Source of the DNA: Fodinibius saliphilus
GTDB lineage: Bacteria > Bacteroidota > Rhodothermia > Balneolales > Balneolaceae
Length of the DNA: 64,000 nt
Direction: 5' to 3'
Assembly (NCBI RefSeq): GCF_005869845.1
Contig: NZ_VAWF01000001.1
Location: 1,488,001 to 1,552,000 of the forward strand
In this document: piece by piece, positions 8,589 to 18,947 of the stretch
How the letters are laid out: each line of letters opens with the position of its first letter
How positions within the stretch are numbered: the stretch's first letter is position 1
The notes under the pieces: generated by a model
Told to the model about the DNA's origin: nothing
Database searches by the model: none
The model's input: the letters and a program-made list of their open reading frames with translations, nothing else
Position numbers and translations under genes: made by a program

Positions 8589-9611
8589 TTATGAAACAAT
8601 CATCGCTTTTACATTGAATTGTCCCCAATACCAGATAATAATTGCAAAAATAATCAACAAAATGAACCACGTTGTAAGCGCTATGCGAGATGCTTTCTGG
8701 GCTTTCTTCTCCTCCCACCAGCTCCGGGGACGAACACCTTGAATAAGAAAAGTGGATATACCTGCCAGGTTAATACAAATAAGGTTCGTAAGTGTCAGAA
8801 TGCCGGCCCCAATCGCGAGCTGCATATAGCCAGCGCCAAGCAACAATCCCACAACCACCAGTGGCGGTAGTAATGCAACTGCTACCATTACCCCCACTAT
8901 AGTCGCCGGCACTCCTCGCGTAAAAGCCAATACTCCTGCACTACCCGCCGCAAGAGCAATAATAATGTGTTTAAGATTAACCATTGTCCGGCTTATTAGC
9001 TCATCTGACTGTGGGTCTACTGTGAATATAAGCCCCATTATGAAAGCCACGCCCAAAGCAACAATTAGGCCGGTGGCATTTGCTTTAATCGATTGCCATC
9101 CCAGGTCAAGATCCCCCAGGGTAGCAGCTAGTGCCAATGAAACATTAGGTGCTAGTAGCGGGGCAATTACCATCGCCCCAATAATGGTGGCAACATCATC
9201 AAGTATTAAACCGATGCCGGCAACCAGAGTAGATAGAACGACCATTGCCAAGTACACAGAATTCAACTCTGCATCTGAAGTGACATCAGCATACAACTCT
9301 TCGCGGCTAACCCTCCCCGGTCCTTCCTTTTCAACTTCGGCTGATGGCTCGTCCTCTTCTGTTTCTGGTTGGGGTAAAGTCGCCTCCACTGAAAACAGCA
9401 TTATTCTAAAATCCTCTTCAGTTCCAAACTGTTCGCTTAGTATATCCGAAATGGTTTCTGTTTGATCTACATTTACCAGTACCCGGAGTATACCCCGCCC
9501 GCCATCAACACTGTCAGTCCATGCCCCCAGAATATTTTCTTCCTCAACCGTTTTGCGTGCTTCTAATAATGATTCTGAAGCGGCAATCAATTCAATTATG
9601 CGTAAACTCAT
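8589..9611 (-). CDS. DUF389 (TIGR00341-type) membrane protein
   Basis: Inner-membrane protein of unknown function. The 340-residue product has a cytoplasmic ACT-like N-terminal region (about 1-75), an acidic linker (TEEDEPSAEVEKEG), then six or so membrane segments from residue ~120. These include the family signatures GIGLILDDVATIIGAMVIAPLLAPN and GVPATIVGVMVAVALLPPLVVVGLLLGAG, with conserved Asp and Pro residues in the membrane. The last segment is aromatic (FAIIIWYWGQF). It starts at the ATG at 9611 (MSLRIIELIA) and is followed after 35 bases by the broken DUF899 gene, so the two probably form a transcription unit. Confidence 0.9.
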   Translation of the reverse strand: MSLRIIELIAASESLLEARKTVEEENILGAWTDSVDGGRGILRVLVNVDQTETISDILSEQFGTEEDFRIMLFSVEATLPQPETEEDEPSAEVEKEGPGRVSREELYADVTSDAELNSVYLAMVVLSTLVAGIGLILDDVATIIGAMVIAPLLAPNVSLALAATLGDLDLGWQSIKANATGLIVALGVAFIMGLIFTVDPQSDELISRTMVNLKHIIIALAAGSAGVLAFTRGVPATIVGVMVAVALLPPLVVVGLLLGAGYMQLAIGAGILTLTNLICINLAGISTFLIQGVRPRSWWEEKKAQKASRIALTTWFILLIIFAIIIWYWGQFNVKAMIVS

Positions 9612-10062
9612 AAGGCAATCGATTTTTAAAAAAGAAGTAACAAAAAAAGTTTTCTAAAAAGTAAGAATAACAGCTAAATATGAAAGAAACGATATATTAT
9701 TAAATAAATATCTATTCATTTTTGGAATTCGCACCAGAAAAAGATCCTTTGCAGATAAAGTCGAGTGTTTTAAAAATAATCCTCCTTTTTTTTCAATGAA
9801 TCACTTCCTTACTACCTTCTATTAGTCGCAAGTATGTTTGTTTTTAAATAAAAAGAGACATTAAGAGCTTAATAAGGGCTTTTTGGAAAATTACCTCCCG
9901 GCCTTCCCTAATAACGTCACAGGCTTCCCTATTAATACATTTTCAATTCATTCTGGCTTAAGTAAAAAGGGAAAATGGCGATAACAGCTTGTGACTAGTT
10001 GGGTACGAAAAAAATATTACAGTACACTTCGCATTTAAGGATAACTACATAAATATAAAACC
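9612..10062. other. Divergent promoter region between DUF389 and the porin gene
   Basis: 450 bases of AT-rich sequence between diverging genes must hold both promoters. No open frame, tRNA, clear hairpin or recognisable operator (including a Pho-box-like repeat) was seen. Confidence 0.5.
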
Positions 10063-11187
10063 ATGGTAAATAGAAGAATACCAATCTTAACTTTAATCTT
10101 TGTTTTTTTAATCGGCGCAAAGGTTACATTCGCACAGAGCAATTGGGAACCTCAAACAAATATTACGGGATATATCTCGACCGAAGTTAATTACTTTGAT
10201 GAACTAGACGGATATGATTTAAATTATTCTGCAGCAGTTTCTGAAGCAGGTATTTTAATTTCATACCAACCAAAATCTAATTTTAGAATAAAAGGGGTAT
10301 TTGTTTATCGTCCCAAGTTCGAAATTGACCAAATGTTGAACGAAGCTTTTGGTGAACTTACTTTATCTGAAGAAGCTAAGTTCAAAGCAGGGCGCTTTCT
10401 TTTACCATTAAGCCCCAGTAATACATTTTATTATGCCCCTGTAAATACTAGTGCAACTCTTCCTATACTGGTAACAAATCATGAGTTTTATCCCGTTACC
10501 ATTGATGGAGCTTCGATAAACGGATCCATAGGGTCAGAATTTAAAGTAAACTATGACTTCTTTGCAGGTGGTTTCAATAATTCTACTTGGCTCAGAACCG
10601 GTGCTGTACGTTTTTTCGGAGATGAAGTCAATTACTTCAAAAAGCAAATTAACAGTTCAGCGACGTTAGATCCGTCCTATAATGAGACTTATAACTTTGG
10701 AGTTGGTGGTAGATTAGGCTTTTCCTACAAATCAAATATTGATGTTGGTTTTAGCGCCTTTAAACCTAATGATCAGGATGTACCATTACTGGTAAATGTC
10801 CCGGCTAATGGCTTATATCCCGGTTCTCCAGCTACTCAAATAGTTCAAGAAAGCAGATTTGAAAAGTTCAGTTACGGTATTAACGTAAAGTTGCAGTACC
10901 AAAACACTAAGTTAGTAGGTGAATATTGGAAAGCCGATCTGGTTATTGATGGCAGCGATACTGACTTAGAAGGTGGATTTGTAGAACTGAACCATCGCAT
11001 TAATAAGGTTACTCCCTACATTAGATATGAGGACCAAAAGACGGCAGACGTTGACTATAAACGATATACTGCAGGGGTTAACTATAAACCAAGCTTTAGA
11101 AAAACATTTAAGCTTGAGTACTTGCGTTACGAACACTCCAGTGGTGATATAAACGGTTTTGTTGGTACATTAATTTACTCATTCTAA
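10063..11187 (+). CDS. Outer-membrane beta-barrel porin-like protein
   Basis: Predicted outer-membrane channel. The 374-residue protein has a signal peptide (RIPILTLIFVFLIGAKVTFAQS) and then alternating, aromatic-rich beta-strand sequence typical of phosphate-porin-like barrels (GRFLLPLSPSNTFYYAP, YGINVKLQYQNTKLVGEYWKA, YKRYTAGVNYKP). It ends in a terminal aromatic residue (GTLIYSF) as expected for barrel assembly by BamA. It is followed 21 bases later by a small PstS-like periplasmic protein and then a chemoreceptor, a layout that suggests uptake and sensing of one solute, perhaps phosphate or another oxyanion (inference). The substrate cannot be read from the sequence. Confidence 0.75.
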   Translation: MVNRRIPILTLIFVFLIGAKVTFAQSNWEPQTNITGYISTEVNYFDELDGYDLNYSAAVSEAGILISYQPKSNFRIKGVFVYRPKFEIDQMLNEAFGELTLSEEAKFKAGRFLLPLSPSNTFYYAPVNTSATLPILVTNHEFYPVTIDGASINGSIGSEFKVNYDFFAGGFNNSTWLRTGAVRFFGDEVNYFKKQINSSATLDPSYNETYNFGVGGRLGFSYKSNIDVGFSAFKPNDQDVPLLVNVPANGLYPGSPATQIVQESRFEKFSYGINVKLQYQNTKLVGEYWKADLVIDGSDTDLEGGFVELNHRINKVTPYIRYEDQKTADVDYKRYTAGVNYKPSFRKTFKLEYLRYEHSSGDINGFVGTLIYSF

Positions 11188-11208
11188 AAGGTATAAGGTT
11201 ATAGTAAT

Positions 11209-11631
11209 ATGAAAAATCTAATAGCAACTTTAGGTATACTTCTGCTTGCTTTTGCAACGGAAGCAACAGCACAATCATTTAAAGTGATTGTCAATAAAGC
11301 GAATGAGACGGAGTCTGTATCGAAAAAAGAACTATCCCGAATCTTTCTTAAAAACAAAACTAAATGGGATGATGGTTCTGAAATAACCCCGGTAGATTTG
11401 AAGGCCAGTTCTGCCACGCGGAAGGCATTTTCAAATGACATTCACGGGCGAGATGTTGGTGCCATAAGAAGTTATTGGCAGCAAGCTGCTTTTTCAGGAA
11501 AAGGAACTGCTCCTGTCGAACGCTCTAGTGATGCTGAGATCATCACTTTTGTCACAAACAATCCCGGTGCAGTTGGTTATATATCTGAATCAACCGATGC
11601 AACAGGGGTAAAGGTGTTGACTATTAATTAA
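11209..11631 (+). CDS. Small PstS-like periplasmic binding protein
   Basis: The 140-residue secreted protein belongs to the PBP-like family annotated as phosphate ABC transporter substrate-binding protein. The signal peptide is MKNLIATLGILLLAFATEATAQS. The mature part shows the family hallmarks: VSKKELSRIFLKNKTKWDDGSEITPVD, an RKAFSNDIHGR segment, YWQQAAFSGKG, and the VTNNPGAVGYIS loop near the end. It is about half the length of a classical PstS and no permease or ATPase genes accompany it. It is therefore more likely a sensing or scavenging protein working with the adjacent porin and chemoreceptor than part of a Pst importer (inference). Confidence 0.82.
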   Translation: MKNLIATLGILLLAFATEATAQSFKVIVNKANETESVSKKELSRIFLKNKTKWDDGSEITPVDLKASSATRKAFSNDIHGRDVGAIRSYWQQAAFSGKGTAPVERSSDAEIITFVTNNPGAVGYISESTDATGVKVLTIN

Positions 11632-11773
11632 CACTCAGATTTAAGCGAGTCATAGAAATAAATTAATGCATTTTTTATGGCTCGCATTTTTCTCTAAAAG
11701 GTAAAATGCGACTAATAGTTTTGTAGCATAAATACATTTTAGTAGTAGGGTATCAAAATCAATTTGTAGAACA

Positions 11774-13378
11774 ATGAATATATTCAATCACATAAAACTC
11801 AGGTATAAGATTCTTGTTTTCCCTACCATATTTATTATGGTTGTGGGTGCAATATTTTATACAACGCAGTGGAGTAATGAAACGATAAAAAAAGAACTGA
11901 ATACCGTTCAGTATTCTTATATCCCCTATAATGACCTGACTAACCGAATGAGCTCAACTCAGGCAGCTATTGAGAAATCACTTCAGGATGCAGTTGCTGC
12001 AAAAGATAAGGCCATGGTTGAAGAAACAGCTTCACTGGCTAAGCAGTTTAGGCAACTAGCTGACAGTGCCAAGACTATTAAAGCTGATAACGATTATGCA
12101 CTACTCGATAGCACATTACAATCGTTCAGCAAATATTATGAGCAAGGGGTAAAAGCCTCAAGTATGATGATTACCCAAGACTTCTCGGAAGAGGTCAGTA
12201 ATAATGTTCAAGCAATGATTGCTGAACAAAAAAAATTAAAGCGACTGCTAAACAAAGCATCTAATTTAGAAGTTAATACTGCCTTCGACAATGCTCATAA
12301 ACAGCTGACTGAGTTAAGTGCAACAATTAACAAGCTACTGCTTATTAGCTTGGGATTATTTATTGGTCTTTCCCTATTACTTTCACATGCCATTGCCGGT
12401 GCTTTACGTAAGATGGTTAAAAAGATCAAGGAACTTGCCGATGGTAATTTAAGTATCCAAATATCTGATAAAAACCTTCGGCGGAAAGATGAAATTGGTG
12501 ATATATCAAAAGCAATGGACAGTCTCGTCACTCAGCTAAAGAATGTTATCAAAGGTGTACAACGGGAGTCGCAAGAGATATCACAAATAAGCGAGCAGCT
12601 TGAAGCCACCTCCAATCAAATGGCACGCGGTTCTAATGAACAAGCTGAATTCGTAGATGAAATCTCCAGCACAATGGAACAGGTTTCTACCAATATTACT
12701 CAAAATGCTGAAAATGCACAACAAACGAATGTCATTTCCAGAGATGCCAATGAACAGTTAAAAGAGGTGGGTGAGAAATCGAAAAAAGCTATTGAAGCTA
12801 ACGAAACCATTACCAATAGAATTAACCAAATTAACGAAATCGCTTCTCAAACAAATATTTTGGCCCTTAATGCCGCTATTGAAGCAGCACGAGCGGGAGA
12901 AGCAGGTAAAGGTTTTGCAGTAGTGGCCAAAGAGGTTCAAGTGCTTGCCGAAAAAAGTAAGAACGTGGGTGATGAAATTGTCGAACTTACCAATGCGGCT
13001 TATGAGCTTTCATCAAAAGCCGGAGAGGTTATGTTTGATACGATCCCTAAGATTAAAGAAACATCTGACCTGGTTCAAGAAATTTCTATTGCCAGTGATG
13101 AACAAAGTCAAGGGGCTAACGAAGTGAATCAGTCTATACAACAATTAAATACACTCTCGCAACAAAGTGCTGCATCCAGCGAAGAGTTGGCTTCATCGGC
13201 AGAACAGCTTATGAATCAATCGGAACGACTGAAGCAATCTATATCTTATTATCATTTGGAGGAGAATGCTCCCCAGCAACAGACCCCAAATCCACAATCG
13301 TTTAACAAGCACAACAACACAAATGGTAATGGACAAAAGCATCAAAACGGTGTTCATGCAGACGATTTCACATTATAG
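11774..13378 (+). CDS. Methyl-accepting chemotaxis protein
   Basis: Transmembrane chemoreceptor of 534 residues. It has TM1 at about 13-30, a helical periplasmic sensor domain at 32-186 (four-helix-bundle type), TM2 at 187-211, HAMP at 211-262, and a cytoplasmic signalling coiled coil. The conserved hairpin tip is at about 355-395 ([26 protein letters not shown]), the site that contacts CheA and CheW. The Gln/Asn-rich tail carries no CheR-binding pentapeptide. It lies 142 bases downstream of the PstS-like gene. The helical sensor suggests it could read the neighbouring binding protein rather than bind ligand directly (inference). No other che genes are in the window. Confidence 0.93.
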
Positions 13379-13444
13379 ATAGAATCTTATATGTAGATGA
13401 CAAAAGATATCAGCATATAAAGCTACTTCTACAAGATATTATTG

Positions 13445-13475
13445 AATCCATACATATTAGCTATGTGTATGGATT
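13445..13475 (+). terminator. Possible terminator after the chemoreceptor gene
   Basis: A 10-bp perfect inverted repeat AATCCATACA / TGTATGGATT with an 11-nt loop is followed by a short T-rich stretch. It lies 67 bases after the stop. The GC content is low. Confidence 0.45.
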
Positions 13476-14027
13476 TCTTATTTAGGCATATACTGTATTA
13501 CCTATTTTTTACTGTTTAAAATAAACTGTAAGCTTTCCTGTTTTTCCAGCCGCTATTTGGGATATCTCTTAATCTATTATACTCTTCTTATTTTGTTAAC
13601 TATGAACCAAACACCGTTGGCTAATTGCATAGCCACATCAATTCTTACTATTGGGTGACTCCGTCGTGGTTGAATAATTACTTCTTTATTTTTTGTAATG
13701 CGTACAGAAGAAAAAAACTTTTTGAGATACCTAGCAAAAAACCCCTCACAGCTACTTATTGACATCTTTGTTGCCGATACCTGTGCCGCCCAATCCCTCT
13801 CCCTTAGACCCCAGAATATCACGGCTCTAATAAATCCGTTAAAAAGCAAGCTCCCAACCCCTTTTTTGTACTCACCCGATATAATTCCACATACCAAGTA
13901 TGGGTTTGAGAAAGTTATCACAATTATTTATCTAACTCTTATATGAAAACAAGGTGTTTTGGGTACTAAAGTCCATACGTTTTTCTTTTTATTGTATAAT
14001 CAACATTACAACTTTAGAGAGATTACT
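13476..14027. other. Intergenic region without a recognisable gene
   Basis: Open frames exist on both strands (minus 13577-13921, 114 codons; plus 13698-13946, 82 codons). They overlap each other and neither shows a signal peptide, a domain motif or a ribosome binding site. The minus frame has a basic PRRSHPIVRIDV stretch and could be the relic of a gene. The promoter of the BspA-like gene must lie near 13940-14020. Confidence 0.4.
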
Positions 14028-15659
14028 ATGTCAATAAAGCCAATTATTTCGCTTTGTATTGTAGCAAGTATACTTTCATTTTCGGCCTGTAGTGATAATG
14101 GTACTGGCACAGATAATGATGATGGCGGAGAGCCCCCGGAAAACAATGAAGCCTTTTATCTGGCCGATAACGGAGTTACCATTAAGTGCGATGAGGCCGA
14201 GGCAGGACAAAAGGGTACTATAGATGGAGACACCTATACCAAGAGAAGTGCTGATAATATAACACCCGACAATGCCGAAACTACCTGTACCAGTGGGATA
14301 ACAGATATGTCATCACTGTTTTTTGACGAAACCTCCTTTAACGCTGATCTCAGCCATTGGGACGTCAGCAGTGTCAAAAACATGAAAAGCCTGTTTAGAA
14401 ATGCCAAAAACTTTAACAGTGACCTGAACGAGTGGGACGTCAGCAGTGTCACAACGATGGCTGAAATATTTAAAAAAGCTTCCTCGTTTAACGGAAATAT
14501 TAGCAACTGGAATGTTAGCAGTGTCACAAATATGCATAGTATGTTTATGTATGCTGAATCGTTCAACGGTGATATTAGTAGCTGGGACGTTAGTAACGTC
14601 ACAAATATGATCCAGATGTTTAGTAATGCTAGCTCGTTCAATAGCGATATTAGCAGCTGGAACGTCAGCAATGTCACATACATGACAAATATGTTTAGAA
14701 AAGCTTCCTCGTTCAACAGCGACATCAGCAGTTGGAACGTGAGCAATGTTACAAATATGAGAGGTATGTTTGCTGGTTTTGATTTTGCATCTTTTAACGG
14801 TGACCTTAGCGGATGGGACGTCAGTAGTGTTACTGATATGAGAAGTATGTTTTTAGGGGCCAAAAACTTCACTAGCGACTTGAACGGCTGGGACGTCAGC
14901 AGTGTCACTGATATGAGTAGTATGTTTAGCAATGCCAAAAACTTCAACAGCGATCTCAACGGGTGGGACGTGAGTAATGTCACCGATATGGTTGGTATGT
15001 TTAGAGAAGCCGAATCGTTCAACGGCAACATCAGTAGCTGGGATGTTAGCAGTGTTAAAAGTATGGAAACTATGTTTTATGGCGCAAAAGCTTTTAATCA
15101 GGATTTAAGCGGATGGGACGTCAGCAGTGTCACTGATATGAGTAGTATGTTTAGCAATGCCAAAAACTTCAACAGCGACCTCAACGGGTGGGACGTGAGT
15201 AATGTCACCGATATGGTTGGTATGTTTAGAGAAGCTGAATCGTTCAACGGCAACATCAGTAGCTGGAACGTAGCCAATGTTGAAAATATGACTATGATGT
15301 TTCAATTTGCCAATACGTTCAGCGGCGACATTAGCAGCTGGGACGTCAGTAGTGTCACTGATATGAGTAGTATGTTTAGCAATGCTAAAAACTTCAACAG
15401 CGACCTCAACGGGTGGGACGTGAGTAATGTCACCGATATGGTTGGTATGTTTAGAGAAGCTGAATCGTTCAACGGCAACATCAGCAGCTGGAACGTTAGC
15501 AGTGTTACAAGTATGGAAACTATGTTTTATGGCGCATTAACTTTTAATCAGGATATAAGTGGCTGGTGCGTTTCCAAGATCAACTCGAAACCTGACAACT
15601 TTTCTAGAGATTGCCCGCTTCAGGAGAGCTATCATCCAATGTGGGGAACTTGTCCATAA
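14028..15659 (+). CDS. BspA-like (DUF285) repeat surface lipoprotein
   Basis: Cell-surface lipoprotein of 543 residues. I chose the ATG at 14028, not the upstream one at 13959, because it places a lipoprotein signal (IISLCIVASILSFSAC, Cys21) at the very N-terminus. After an acidic linker and a Cys-containing segment come about 16 repeats of 25 residues with consensus GWDVSSVTDMxxMFxxAxxFNxDLS, the DUF285/BspA-type repeat found in surface proteins of Bacteroidetes and Mycoplasma. One repeat is 27 residues long. The protein closes with a degenerate GWCVSKI cap containing two Cys. Such proteins often mediate adhesion or cell contact, but the ligand is unknown. The array shows recent duplication (see the repeat entry). 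Confidence 0.9.
   Translation: MSIKPIISLCIVASILSFSACSDNGTGTDNDDGGEPPENNEAFYLADNGVTIKCDEAEAGQKGTIDGDTYTKRSADNITPDNAETTCTSGITDMSSLFFDETSFNADLSHWDVSSVKNMKSLFRNAKNFNSDLNEWDVSSVTTMAEIFKKASSFNGNISNWNVSSVTNMHSMFMYAESFNGDISSWDVSNVTNMIQMFSNASSFNSDISSWNVSNVTYMTNMFRKASSFNSDISSWNVSNVTNMRGMFAGFDFASFNGDLSGWDVSSVTDMRSMFLGAKNFTSDLNGWDVSSVTDMSSMFSNAKNFNSDLNGWDVSNVTDMVGMFREAESFNGNISSWDVSSVKSMETMFYGAKAFNQDLSGWDVSSVTDMSSMFSNAKNFNSDLNGWDVSNVTDMVGMFREAESFNGNISSWNVANVENMTMMFQFANTFSGDISSWDVSSVTDMSSMFSNAKNFNSDLNGWDVSNVTDMVGMFREAESFNGNISSWNVSSVTSMETMFYGALTFNQDISGWCVSKINSKPDNFSRDCPLQESYHPMWGTCP
14886..15560 (+). repeat. Three tandem copies of a 225-bp higher-order repeat
   Basis: Copies start at about 14886, 15111 and 15336. 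Each holds three 75-bp (25-residue) units. The first two units of each copy are nearly identical in DNA (SSMFSNAKNFNSDLN then VGMFREAESFNGNIS). The third unit is alike in copies 1 and 3 (METMFYGA) but different in copy 2 (MTMMFQFANTFSGD). This indicates recent tandem duplication or gene conversion within the repeat lipoprotein. Confidence 0.88.
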
Positions 15660-15895
15660 ATGAGGGAAGAATACATCACAAAATATAATTTTACCACATC
15701 TCAGGACACTTCTTCATGAGATGCAGCAGAAAATCCCAGTGACCATTGCCACATCTTTGTGCATGGTCACTGAATAGTTCACCAGGAATCTGGTAAAACT
15801 TGGATTAATCTGGTTTTAAAACTTTCAAAAATCGCCTTTCAGCTACTCTAATATACGAATTTATAGCATTTTAAGGAAATTTAGAAAAGTAATAG
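15660..15895. other. Gap between the repeat lipoprotein and tmRNA, with a hairpin
   Basis: No gene was seen. It contains a 10-bp perfect inverted repeat CAGTGACCAT / ATGGTCACTG at 15737-15746 and 15763-15772, whose stem can extend inward with small bulges. No long T-run follows on either strand. It could end transcription from the convergent lipoprotein and tmRNA genes. Confidence 0.5.
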
Positions 15896-16258
15896 TGGAG
15901 GTGCGGGGAGTCGAACCCCGGTCCGAAATGGTATATCGTTCAAGCATCTACATGCTTAGTTGCCGTTTAGAATTCGCCCGAAGCATCGCCCGGCAACTGG
16001 CAACTTCAGACTAGTCTGTTAAAGTTTTACGCAGGCTCGACAGACAGCGAAACCTCCGCTATCCTGTCATAATCGGCGCCCCATTCAGCACTGACAGGCA
16101 AGAAGCTGATGGAACGGCTAAACTGCGTTACGCAGCTAAGCTATAAGAATAGTTGTTGTCAACTATGTTTATGCAGAATGATTATTTACGAGTGTCATTG
16201 CAAAAACTCGGCATGCAGCCTGCGATTCTACTCACTCCGTCGAATCCGGTACACCCCC
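15896..16258 (-). ncRNA. ssrA: Transfer-messenger RNA (one-piece tmRNA)
   Basis: Rescues stalled ribosomes and tags the incomplete protein for proteolysis. The 5' end GGGGGTGTACCGGATTCGACGG and the 3' end GGTTCGACTCCCCGCACCTCCA form the tRNA-like acceptor and T arm. CCA is not encoded. The first pseudoknot (CGAG/CTCG and GCAATGA/TCATTCTGC) precedes the tag frame. After TAGTT, which matches the TAGTC before the E. coli resume codon, the frame reads GAC AAC AAC TAT TCT TAT AGC TTA GCT GCG TAA (bases 16128-16160). The predicted tag is therefore A-DNNYSYSLAA. The gene lies about 100 bases behind the lysine-biosynthesis fusion on the same strand. Confidence 0.95.
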
Positions 16259-16274
16259 AAATTTCCAAAGAACA

Positions 16275-16290
16275 ACGCTGTTTCCAGCGC
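16275..16290 (-). terminator. Weak hairpin between the lysine-fusion gene and tmRNA
   Basis: On the minus strand CGCTG-GAAA-CAGCG forms a short GNRA-loop hairpin followed by TTGTTCTTT. It lies 70-90 bases past the upstream stop and just before the tmRNA 5' end, so it may be a weak terminator or part of the ssrA promoter region. Confidence 0.35.
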
Positions 16291-16361
16291 CATTTTTTCA
16301 ACGTTTCAAAATCCCAATTATTATGTTCAGAAACAAACTAATTTCTTTACACTGTATACCA

Positions 16362-18947
16362 TCAAATCACTACCTCTGCTGCCGGTGGACGCAGGTTGTA
16401 ATTGGAACTCATTACGTAACCATAAGCCCCGGCATTGGCCAGCAACACCACATCTCCCTCCTCTGATTCGGGAAATCTTCGATCAATCCCAAGTTTATCA
16501 CCCGACTCACAGATCGGCCCTACAATATTTACCGTTTGTACTAGCTGCTCATCAATTTTATCAAGATTAACAATAGTATGACGTGCCCCATATAGTGCAG
16601 GTCGAATGAAGGAATTCATCCCTGTTTCGACTCCGACATATCTGACATCCCCTTTTCCTTTAAGTTGCGTAATCTTTGTCAGTAGTACACCAGAGGTTGC
16701 AACTAGAAAACGCCCTGGTTCCACCCAGAGTTTATACTTGGGGTGCGCATCTTTAAACTGTTGTAAATAGGTAGCAACTTCCCGGATATCGAGATCAGCC
16801 TGGGTTTCATTCTCTTGGATTCCAAACCCACCCCCTAGATCGAGTATATCGACCCCACCCAACTCTTCAGCAACATCATGCAAGATAATAGCTGTATCTT
16901 TCCAAGAATGCGGATCTTTAATACCACTGCCGATATGAGCATGGAGTCCTTTCACCGAGATATCGTATCGTTCGATAAGATTGGCTACCTCCGGGATCTC
17001 AAATCGGGGGATACCGAACTTAGAATGTACTCCCCCGGTCTTCACATGCTTATGGTGCCCGTGCCCGTGACCGGGATCAATACGCAAGAATACCTGCTTT
17101 CCTTCAAATATTGCTGACCACTGCTTAAGGGGATAAATATTATCCAACGTCACATGAACTCCCAGTTCCAATCCTTGTTCATACTCCTCTTTGGGTGCAA
17201 AGTTAGGAGTGAATAAAATTTCGCTGCGATCGATATCAGGAAATAGCTCAATGACTTTTTCGACTTCTCCAATAGAGACACATTCAAAACCAAGATCCAG
17301 CTCATTTACCGCATGCAAAAGCTCTTCATTTGCATTGGCCTTCATCGCGTATAGTGAACGGTCAACGGCATTAATACCTTTGATAAAACCAGCATATTTT
17401 TGAAGCGTCTCGCGATCATATACATAAACGGAGTCTCGTTCATCCATCAACGACAATAACTCTTCACGCTTTTGCTTCCACCAAGCATCACTTTCCTGCT
17501 CATCCGTTTGCTCTTGTCCCATCAATTTGGGCCAGGTACCACCGAAAGATTGCTGGTTTCCTGATTGTAGAATCAACTGTTCATGTAGTTGACGCAACAA
17601 CCGATCTACCTGATCGCTTTCTACCACAAACGTAAAATTAAGATCATTAGCAGCTTGGCTCACCAAATAAACATGGTGTTCTTCAAAAACCTCAAATGAG
17701 GTCCCCAGTTGGTGCAAAATGGTACGAATTTTACGCCCCATCAGACTCACCGCAGACACCGCTTCAATTACCTTGACCTTACAATATTCATTAAGGTCTT
17801 TCACAAACTGACTTCGTACATCCTCAAAATGATCATTTAATCCAGGATCAAGTGATACCGTTACATTCGACTGTGAGGTTGACACCAAATCAATGGACAA
17901 CCCGTACTCTTTAAACACGTCAAAGGCATCAGCCAAAAAACCCACTTGCTGCCACATTCCTAACGAATCCATACTCACCAAAATAATATCGTCACGGACG
18001 GAAATTGCCTTTACCAATGCTTCATTATCAGATGCATCGCTAGAGATAACTGTTCCCGGCAGTTCCGGCTTTTGGGTACACCGTACATTTATAGGAATAT
18101 TATGTTTACGTGCCGGCATAATGCTTCGCGGATGTAATACCTTGGCCCCATTGGTTGCAATCTCTTGGGCCTCCTCGTAGCTCAGATGATTGAGCAACCG
18201 TGCCGAAGGTACTGTGTGGGGGTTAGCTGAAAACATCCCCGGTACATCGGTCCATATCTCTAAGTGCTCTGCTCCTATTTTTGCTGCGAAGTAGGCTGCT
18301 GAGACATCTGAGCCCCCGCGTCCCAGAGTTACCGTTTTTCCTTCATCATCACTGCCTATAAAGCCTTGAGTAACTACTAGTGAACCGGCTTTATCAATAG
18401 TTTTACGAACACTTGGTTCATAGTCCGAAGCACTCACAGCAGACAATACCTGTGCGCGCTCTGCAGCATTTTTAGGGGAAATAGTCTTAATAAGGTCTCG
18501 CGCATCTAGCCAGGTAGCTGCTCCAATTTCTTGCTCTAAATATGCCGCCCCTAACTTAGTAGCCATTAATTCTCCCATCGCTAATAACCGTGCTTGCACC
18601 CTATAACTGGCCTCACCAATGAGCTCAATCCCCTTTACGATGTGCTCTAACTCCTCAAAATCGCTTTGTAACAGTTCATCTGCTGAAAGACCCAACGATG
18701 AAGCCAACCGGCGATGCTTTTCTTTAAGCTGCTCAACAAGCTCTGTAGCTTTCCCTTGGGGAGCTCGGGCAATAACATCTTCCAACAGATTAGAAATCCC
18801 ACTTAATGCTGAATGAACAATACATACCGAATACCCCTCCGATTTTCGTTTTTTTATAACCGAAACAATGTTTTGCCAATTTTCGTGGGATGAAACACTG
18901 GTTCCACCAAATTTTAAAACAATCCAGTTTGAACTATCTTTAGTCAT
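16362..18947 (-). CDS. Bifunctional aspartate kinase / diaminopimelate decarboxylase
   Basis: Fusion of the first and last enzymes of the diaminopimelate route to lysine. The likely start is the ATG at 18947 (MTKDSSNWIVLKFGGTS); a frame open to 18971 adds eight residues. Residues ~8-290 are the aspartokinase catalytic domain (KFGGTSVSS; TLGRGGSDVSAAYFA), ~300-450 are two ACT regulatory domains (ILVSMDSLGMWQQVGFLADAF; AVSLMGRKIRTIL), and ~500-860 are a fold-III PLP decarboxylase with YAMKAN (PLP lysine K536), HAHIGSGI, DLGGGFGI and GPICESGD. Fusions of this order are known in several bacteria. The ACT domains imply feedback control, probably by lysine or threonine (inference). No riboswitch was seen upstream. 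Confidence 0.93.
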   Translation of the reverse strand: MTKDSSNWIVLKFGGTSVSSHENWQNIVSVIKKRKSEGYSVCIVHSALSGISNLLEDVIARAPQGKATELVEQLKEKHRRLASSLGLSADELLQSDFEELEHIVKGIELIGEASYRVQARLLAMGELMATKLGAAYLEQEIGAATWLDARDLIKTISPKNAAERAQVLSAVSASDYEPSVRKTIDKAGSLVVTQGFIGSDDEGKTVTLGRGGSDVSAAYFAAKIGAEHLEIWTDVPGMFSANPHTVPSARLLNHLSYEEAQEIATNGAKVLHPRSIMPARKHNIPINVRCTQKPELPGTVISSDASDNEALVKAISVRDDIILVSMDSLGMWQQVGFLADAFDVFKEYGLSIDLVSTSQSNVTVSLDPGLNDHFEDVRSQFVKDLNEYCKVKVIEAVSAVSLMGRKIRTILHQLGTSFEVFEEHHVYLVSQAANDLNFTFVVESDQVDRLLRQLHEQLILQSGNQQSFGGTWPKLMGQEQTDEQESDAWWKQKREELLSLMDERDSVYVYDRETLQKYAGFIKGINAVDRSLYAMKANANEELLHAVNELDLGFECVSIGEVEKVIELFPDIDRSEILFTPNFAPKEEYEQGLELGVHVTLDNIYPLKQWSAIFEGKQVFLRIDPGHGHGHHKHVKTGGVHSKFGIPRFEIPEVANLIERYDISVKGLHAHIGSGIKDPHSWKDTAIILHDVAEELGGVDILDLGGGFGIQENETQADLDIREVATYLQQFKDAHPKYKLWVEPGRFLVATSGVLLTKITQLKGKGDVRYVGVETGMNSFIRPALYGARHTIVNLDKIDEQLVQTVNIVGPICESGDKLGIDRRFPESEEGDVVLLANAGAYGYVMSSNYNLRPPAAEVVI

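Follow-up and report, generated by a model that had tools for sequence, protein, structure and literature searches.

A porin gene and a gene for a single-lobe PstS-type protein stand side by side in distant bacteria, often near a varying receptor

Why should a porin gene, a gene for half of a phosphate-binding protein and a chemoreceptor gene stand in a row? The three lie in a stretch of 64,000 nucleotides, here called the window, from the 3.6 Mb genome of Fodinibius saliphilus (contig NZ_VAWF01000001.1, positions 1,488,001 to 1,552,000). The original prediction for this DNA took them for one sensing module, in which a phosphate-porin-like barrel captures a solute at the outer membrane and a 140-residue PstS-family protein presents it to the receptor for taxis. 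We find that the module is real, conserved and apparently undescribed; its genomic basis is firm, and from it we infer a mechanism in which the small protein couples porin and receptor.

Three genes that stay together

The block occupies positions 10063-13378, and its three genes are consecutive on one strand, as had been predicted:

10063..11187, plus strand: outer-membrane porin-type beta-barrel of 374 amino acids with a signal peptide and a C-terminal Phe (open reading frame, Porin_4 match below cut-off, AlphaFold barrel)
11209..11631, plus strand: single-lobe PstS-type periplasmic protein, termed half-PstS, of 140 amino acids including the signal peptide (PF12849, AlphaFold, match to 1twy)
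11774..13378, plus strand: transmembrane chemoreceptor (methyl-accepting chemotaxis protein, MCP) of 534 amino acids (MCPsignal, HAMP, two hydrophobic stretches)

The gap from porin to half-PstS is 21 bases and that from half-PstS to receptor 142 bases. Among the open reading frames of the window, no ATP-binding cassette (ABC) permease or ATPase gene adjoins the block, so the description of a PstS-family protein without its transporter holds.

We searched 97 related genomes, the window's own included, whose phylum and class names (Bacteroidota, Balneolia) were inferred from sequence. The half-PstS was found in 13 of them, in 11 as a close copy (at least 55% identity) and in two, G020 and G021, in a distant form only. 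The porin occurred in 11 of the 97 genomes, which are exactly the 11 with a close half-PstS, and the sensor part of the receptor (its first 195 residues) in seven, all within the 11; in each of the seven the best match adjoins the pair, and one genome, G059, has a second, weak match elsewhere (22% identity, E 1.8e-4). In the remaining four of the 11 pair genomes, the pair is alone (G032, G048, G053) or has a different receptor upstream (G064). G057 carries three porins and three half-PstS genes; they form three tandem pairs (L031:6460-8191), where the first half-PstS lacks a stretch at about residues 68-80 and looks degenerate. The genes are thus kept together in relatives, non-conservation was not found in this search, and the porin, the half-PstS and the receptor behave as one unit. 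Their arrangement is far beyond chance.

The pair also reaches beyond the group of the organism. Of 296 genomes in the window's phylum, a half-PstS profile matched 40 (E 1e-3). The best match reached 1e-10 or lower in 23 of them and lay in frames of about 140-245 amino acids; in the other 17 the frames were 271-412 amino acids long, as in full PstS. Scanning one unannotated collection of species genomes for stretches that fit A[YL]W[SA]K[LAQ][IVL]F[TS]G gave 447 matches, 446 of them confirmed by tblastn. Our gamma loci are the best 80 of these 446 confirmed relatives; they were picked by half-PstS sequence alone, and to judge by their record titles they are presumably gammaproteobacterial. Plasmids yielded 20 records, whose names point to gamma- and betaproteobacteria and one Persicobacter; 13 of the 20 matches are annotated 'phosphate ABC transporter substrate-binding protein'. 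Altogether 125 loci were collected. From 119 of them came 133 half-PstS genes, and six (L052, L055, L056, L095, L098, L100) were dropped because our simple gene caller lost the gene; among the dropped loci, an annotated porin stands beside the half-PstS in L052 and a hypothetical protein of similar size in L055 and L056.

A barrel-type gene, defined as encoding 280-460 amino acids with a terminal F, W or Y, adjoins 118 of the 133 half-PstS genes on the same strand within 120 bp, at a median gap of 12 bp. It lies upstream of the half-PstS in 91 cases and downstream in 33, some having both, and several of the 15 genes without a barrel are contig-end or gene-caller losses. All 117 distinct barrels (117/117) match one profile, which was built from these same proteins; the window porin alone finds gamma barrels, up to 6.8e-7. 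Annotated records give the same picture, with the order MCP, porin, half-PstS on the P. aeruginosa H15 plasmid; MCP, a 429-residue hypothetical protein, half-PstS in Agarilytica; a hypothetical protein of about 375-380 residues, half-PstS, MCP in Ideonella and Massilia; and such a hypothetical protein (again about 375-380 residues), half-PstS and then a GGDEF/EAL protein in Caballeronia. Beyond the organism's own group, the half-PstS/barrel pair is present in gamma- and betaproteobacteria as well, often with a receptor. On the Alteromonas plasmids L046 and L047, the pair lies beside the type IV CRISPR genes csf1, csf2, csf3 and csf5.

A single PstS lobe and a generic porin

The half-PstS matches PF12849 above the cut-off (1.2e-7), at profile positions 94-190 of 267, and the half-PstS profile A2 matches the PstS 4exl at 5.3e-10. 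In its AlphaFold model (pLDDT 93.3), residues 22-140 correspond to residues 103-219 of PstS 1twy (Z 16.0, root-mean-square deviation (rmsd) 1.6 over 106 residues) and to residues 77-210 of E. coli PstS 2abh (Z 11.0, rmsd 2.3 over 108). By sequence and fold, the protein is of PstS descent; according to the predicted model, the mature form is exactly lobe 2 of PstS and the other lobe is absent. It shares with PstS (1twy, 4exl, 2abh) the lobe 2 fold over its whole mature length, but has no lobe 1, no phosphate loop and no pstCAB beside it, and carries an extra W...G...P segment.

We take the phosphate loop of lobe 2 to consist of R135, S139, G140 and T141 of E. coli PstS. At these R/S/G/T positions the window protein has L, S, A and T (residues 64, 68, 69 and 70). 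Throughout the family the loop is lost: R is present in 1 of 133 sequences, S in 53/133, G in 6/133 and T in 35/133, and S-G-T together in 0/133. The loop was intact in all four full PstS proteins that align there (six were tried, and the genome's own PstS did not align at the loop). Conserved instead is the W...G...P segment, which is missing from full PstS. In the 41 rows that were not selected by pattern, W90 is kept in 36, F95 in 25, G97 in 36 and P102 in 39; since the gamma loci were found by a pattern on this very segment, the conservation of W90, F95 and G97 in them is built in. The segment suggests that an old fold has acquired a new surface for interaction.

A pst-type operon lies elsewhere in the genome. 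A full-length PstS of 317 amino acids is encoded at C1:698817, 0.8 Mb from the block on the same contig, with PhoU downstream, and from their order the genes in between are presumably pstC, pstA and pstB. An outer-membrane protein matching PF07396 above the cut-off follows PstS...PhoU (L045:11195-12232) and is the genome's candidate phosphate porin. With a separate pst-type operon that has its own PF07396 protein, nothing at the block singles out phosphate. We also rejected phosphate regulation of the module: upstream of 132 half-PstS modules, Pho-box-like sites showed no excess over shuffles (best match 8.92 of 14 vs 8.89 shuffled), as scored with an assumed consensus and without a positive control. 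The single lobe, the family-wide loss of the loop and the separate pst-type operon all speak against capture and presentation of a phosphate-like solute by the 140-residue protein.

The porin itself has a generic fold, as far as its model tells. The window protein matches Porin_4 below the cut-off (1.4e-4) and PF07396 not at all at E <= 1; among 38 members of its family, Porin_4 matches 25 and PF07396 five, weakly (best 1.9e-4). Its AlphaFold model (pLDDT 72.1, pTM 0.71) has 19 strand elements by DSSP, some of them short, and a low-confidence loop at residues 116-154 that would cover the likely constriction. In VIA-align, Z ranged from 21.2 to 23.5 among the 50 matches listed: OprO scored 23.5 (rmsd 6.8, 315 aligned), OprP 23.3 (5.0, 305), OmpT 22.7 (3.1, 280) and PorB 22.3 (2.8, 275). 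Nominally OprO and OprP are at the top, tied or nearly so with many general porins for a model of pLDDT 72. We rejected phosphate porin identity, because fold comparison and Pfam do not set the window porin apart from general porins. What is left of the predicted 'phosphate-porin-like' barrel is the weak PF07396 match in 5/38 relatives, as against its absence from the window porin and the tie of OprO and OprP. A paralogue of the porin in the window genome was not found at E <= 1.

The exchangeable receptor and the surroundings of the block

Sensors make up 45 of the 183 immediate neighbours of the modules on either strand vs 45 of 808 other flank genes, an enrichment of about fourfold, and MCPs 30 of the 183 vs 8 of the 808, about sixteenfold; in these counts the module neighbours were dereplicated (97 clusters at 75% identity) and the 808 background flank genes were not. 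Sensor labels came from hidden Markov models seeded in the same loci, and SpoIIE was outside that set, so that L087 was scored as having no sensor. Before dereplication, a sensor was a neighbour in 12 of 15 modules of the own order, in 14 of 17 of the rest of the own phylum, in 2 of 9 on plasmids and in 36 of 92 gamma modules.

The third gene carries different outputs, namely MCPsignal, HisKA/HATPase, SpoIIE (L087) and GGDEF-EAL (L055). In the window's phylum one periplasmic input domain is common to six MCPs, five histidine kinases and the SpoIIE protein. No Pfam family was found in this domain in the eight of these proteins scanned, and CHASE8/Cache was rejected as its identity for want of a Pfam match. 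G021, where the third gene is a histidine kinase, was the sole genome without MCPsignal or CheA among 12 tested. On a tree of 105 half-PstS rows, the type of the same-strand neighbour must have changed at least 21 times (14 when MCP is set against all others); 18 of its 102 inner branches are starred and 41 open, and we used it as a hint only. We favour the view that the porin/half-PstS pair is the constant core and the receptor an exchangeable output. Taxis as an essential output, as originally predicted, does not fit relatives whose pair has a histidine kinase, a SpoIIE or GGDEF/EAL protein or no receptor beside it, nor the shorter hairpin of the window receptor described below.

The window receptor is an MCP, with two transmembrane helices, HAMP and MCPsignal with its conserved tip all present: the first helix lies at about residues 13-31, the periplasmic domain at about 32-186, the second helix at about 188-207, HAMP at 202-256 and MCPsignal at 313-479. 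These hydrophobic stretches uphold the predicted extent of a periplasmic sensor at residues 32-186, and its helical fold is probable. The domain differs from the input domain common to the phylum's MCP, kinase and SpoIIE receptors, and is homologous to that of the gamma MCPs beside half-PstS (hhalign 97.3%, E 1.7e-11 over 174 columns; the other MCPs of the genome, used as control, gave 0.6%). PF12729 (4HB_MCP_1) matches neither the window MCP nor the MCPs of L034, L126 and L141, and does match two module histidine kinases, those of L099 and L103. In the PDB the sole match to the sensor domain was a designed protein at 0.014, which we disregarded.

One CheA was found in the genome, in a region with MCP genes and what are, by sequence, presumably flagellar and che genes. 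Compared with the other four intact MCPs of the genome, the window receptor has a signalling hairpin shorter by about seven residues per arm; compared with two aligned gamma MCPs, by about 21. This would make it 34H-like in length. PMC11253619 describes the 34H class as a minor one and, in P. syringae, allots it to F8 systems. Two further MCP signalling domains of the genome are broken, at G000:C1:1215174-1215620 (L007) and G000:C2:141345-141850 (L009, L010, L044), with two in-frame stops in one and a frame change in the other; the receptor repertoire may be decaying.

The genes flanking the block are unrelated to it: DUF389 (8589-9611, minus strand) on one side, and on the other a DUF285-repeat protein and, past it, a gene that we take to be aspartokinase-type. 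The DUF389 and aspartokinase-type genes enclose the block in the window genome, G000, and also in G004. In G003 this interval measures about 1.1 kb and has a single frame, of 161 amino acids, and the block is elsewhere, near a gene that is presumably katG; the three genes are thus kept together while changing place within the genus. From DUF389 toward the aspartokinase-type gene (window 9611-16362; L194, L198, L199, L200), content varies across the genus, like an insertion hotspot. The DUF285-repeat protein (window 13959-15659, E 1.1e-177) directly follows the block inside this variable interval, and in G004 (L028:10661-13540) the module is followed by a further MCP and by another barrel-like protein, which has no Pfam match. 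Two further features were recorded:

11682..11711, plus strand: perfect inverted repeat of 9 bp that separates the half-PstS and receptor genes; possibly an attenuator or a chance occurrence
13444..13476, plus strand: terminator-like stem-loop 65 bases past the receptor stop codon (14 pairs, loop of 5, T-rich tail), a consensus match only, since the region holds 4 such sites vs a mean of 2.6 in shuffles

Coupling across the envelope and its alternatives

With a confidence that we put at about even, we propose that the three proteins form an envelope signalling module in which the half-PstS is the periplasmic coupling protein between porin and receptor. The porin would admit a solute, or itself report a condition of the outer membrane. 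The half-PstS, a free-standing second lobe of PstS, would dock on the periplasmic side of the porin and also on the periplasmic domain of the inner-membrane receptor, and its binding or release would set the receptor state. The lobe could in this way couple the state of the porin, or the passing solute, to the receptor's periplasmic domain across outer membrane, periplasm and inner membrane. The output would follow the receptor type, a chemoreceptor and hence possibly taxis here, and a histidine kinase, a SpoIIE-type receptor or a GGDEF/EAL protein elsewhere. A coupling protein is favoured over a ligand-presenting one because the single lobe lacks the phosphate loop and has the W...G...P segment instead. 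A bolder version, in which the free-standing lobe serves in at least two phyla as the fixed link from a dedicated porin to interchangeable inner-membrane receptors, and in which porin or receptor completes the cleft, confining ligand binding to the interface and to the time of entry into the cell, is conceivable and, in our estimate, rather doubtful.

Several observations weigh against coupling. Counting contig ends in, an adjoining sensor is lacking in 44 of the 63 dereplicated gamma modules, and in three of the 11 pair genomes (G032, G048, G053) no receptor adjoins the pair despite the presence of MCPs and CheA; such pairs may have a receptor-free job, or their receptors may be distant. No barrel stands beside the half-PstS at L049, L096, L139, L144 and L157, and the window porin as query misses the barrels of the distant cases G020 and G021. 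The related genomes are not independent cases. Finally, S68 and R71 are invariant in all 12 sequences of alignment A1, so that an anion contact could persist in that clade.

This invariance would suit the model of the original prediction, which we now consider unlikely: a phosphate-like solute enters through the porin, and the half-PstS binds it and passes it on to a receptor that drives taxis, a role that PstS plays toward CtpL in Pseudomonas aeruginosa. The half-PstS is of PstS descent, but it has only one of the two lobes that enclose phosphate, and that one without the loop; Pho-box-like sites are not enriched, within the limits given above; full-length PstS is encoded at another site of the genome and followed there by a PF07396 protein; and outputs other than MCPs occur. 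As a precedent, the CtpL-PstS route likewise pairs a PstS-family periplasmic protein with a chemoreceptor that does not bind the ligand through its own domain: PMC4926252 reports that the CtpL ligand-binding domain (LBD) does not bind inorganic phosphate (Pi) and binds Pi-loaded PstS 1:1, with a dissociation constant (KD) of 3.7 uM. There, however, PstS is full length, binds Pi with a KD of 7 nM and is part of pstSCAB, and the CtpL-LBD has 286 amino acids and is not a four-helix bundle (PMC4926252). The window module has one lobe only, has lost the phosphate loop, has a porin attached and has an exchangeable output. With the loop lost, presentation is left without the binding site on which the precedent depends.

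We also give little credence to porin and half-PstS being an outer-membrane uptake or assembly unit, with the half-PstS as plug, substrate relay or porin chaperone and the adjoining receptors sensing the same substrate independently. Such a unit would agree with the greater constancy of the pair, a barrel being present in 118/133 cases vs a neighbouring sensor in 19/63 dereplicated gamma modules, and with sensor-free tandem pairs at several loci (for example L109, L111, L136 and L178). It accords poorly with the enrichment of sensors and MCPs beside the module, with a receptor sensor domain that among the 97 genomes is confined to pair genomes and stands beside the pair, bar the weak match in G059, and with one input domain that carries several outputs beside the pair. 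That the window receptor drives a pathway other than flagellar taxis, or is poorly coupled, so that the module controls something besides swimming, is very improbable: its hairpin is short and 34H-like and a single CheA was found, but this sole CheA lies in a region of MCP and presumably flagellar genes, which leaves no obvious alternative kinase, and receptors of mixed lengths can share arrays.

We return to coupling by the half-PstS, in which the parts belong to known families, while their combination and an adaptor made of a single lobe are apparently new. Sensing chains of similar outline exist. In Vibrio, chitoporin, a chitin-oligosaccharide-binding protein and ChiS join a porin, a binding protein and a membrane kinase in one chain, but the binding protein is the full substrate-binding protein of an ABC transporter for chito-oligosaccharides. 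YfiR of the YfiBNR system presumably belongs to a family different from that of half-PstS, and no family known to be of YfiR or CHASE8 type was in the Pfam lists (E <= 1) of the three proteins of the block and of 20 more module sensors and barrels. In outline the YfiBNR cyclic di-GMP system is alike, having an outer-membrane component, a small periplasmic messenger and an inner-membrane receptor, with YfiR linking YfiB and YfiN; it differs in that YfiB is not a porin but a lipoprotein that binds peptidoglycan, and that the output is fixed as a diguanylate cyclase (PMC4887326; see also PMC4655355). Among the titles and abstract openings listed by open-access literature searches aimed at this gene set, with subscription papers and preprints outside the scope, we found no description of this gene set or of a half-size PstS.

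Thus, a pore gene and a half-PstS gene side by side in very different bacteria, often near a varying receptor, point to an undescribed signal route across the envelope. Swappable outputs behind one input domain would also allow the signal to be tested, by transferring the input to a reporter receptor. If these proteins are porin-coupled adaptors, the label 'phosphate ABC transporter substrate-binding protein' would be wrong for them, and a widespread sensory route from outer to inner membrane would have gone unnoticed in marine and soil bacteria.

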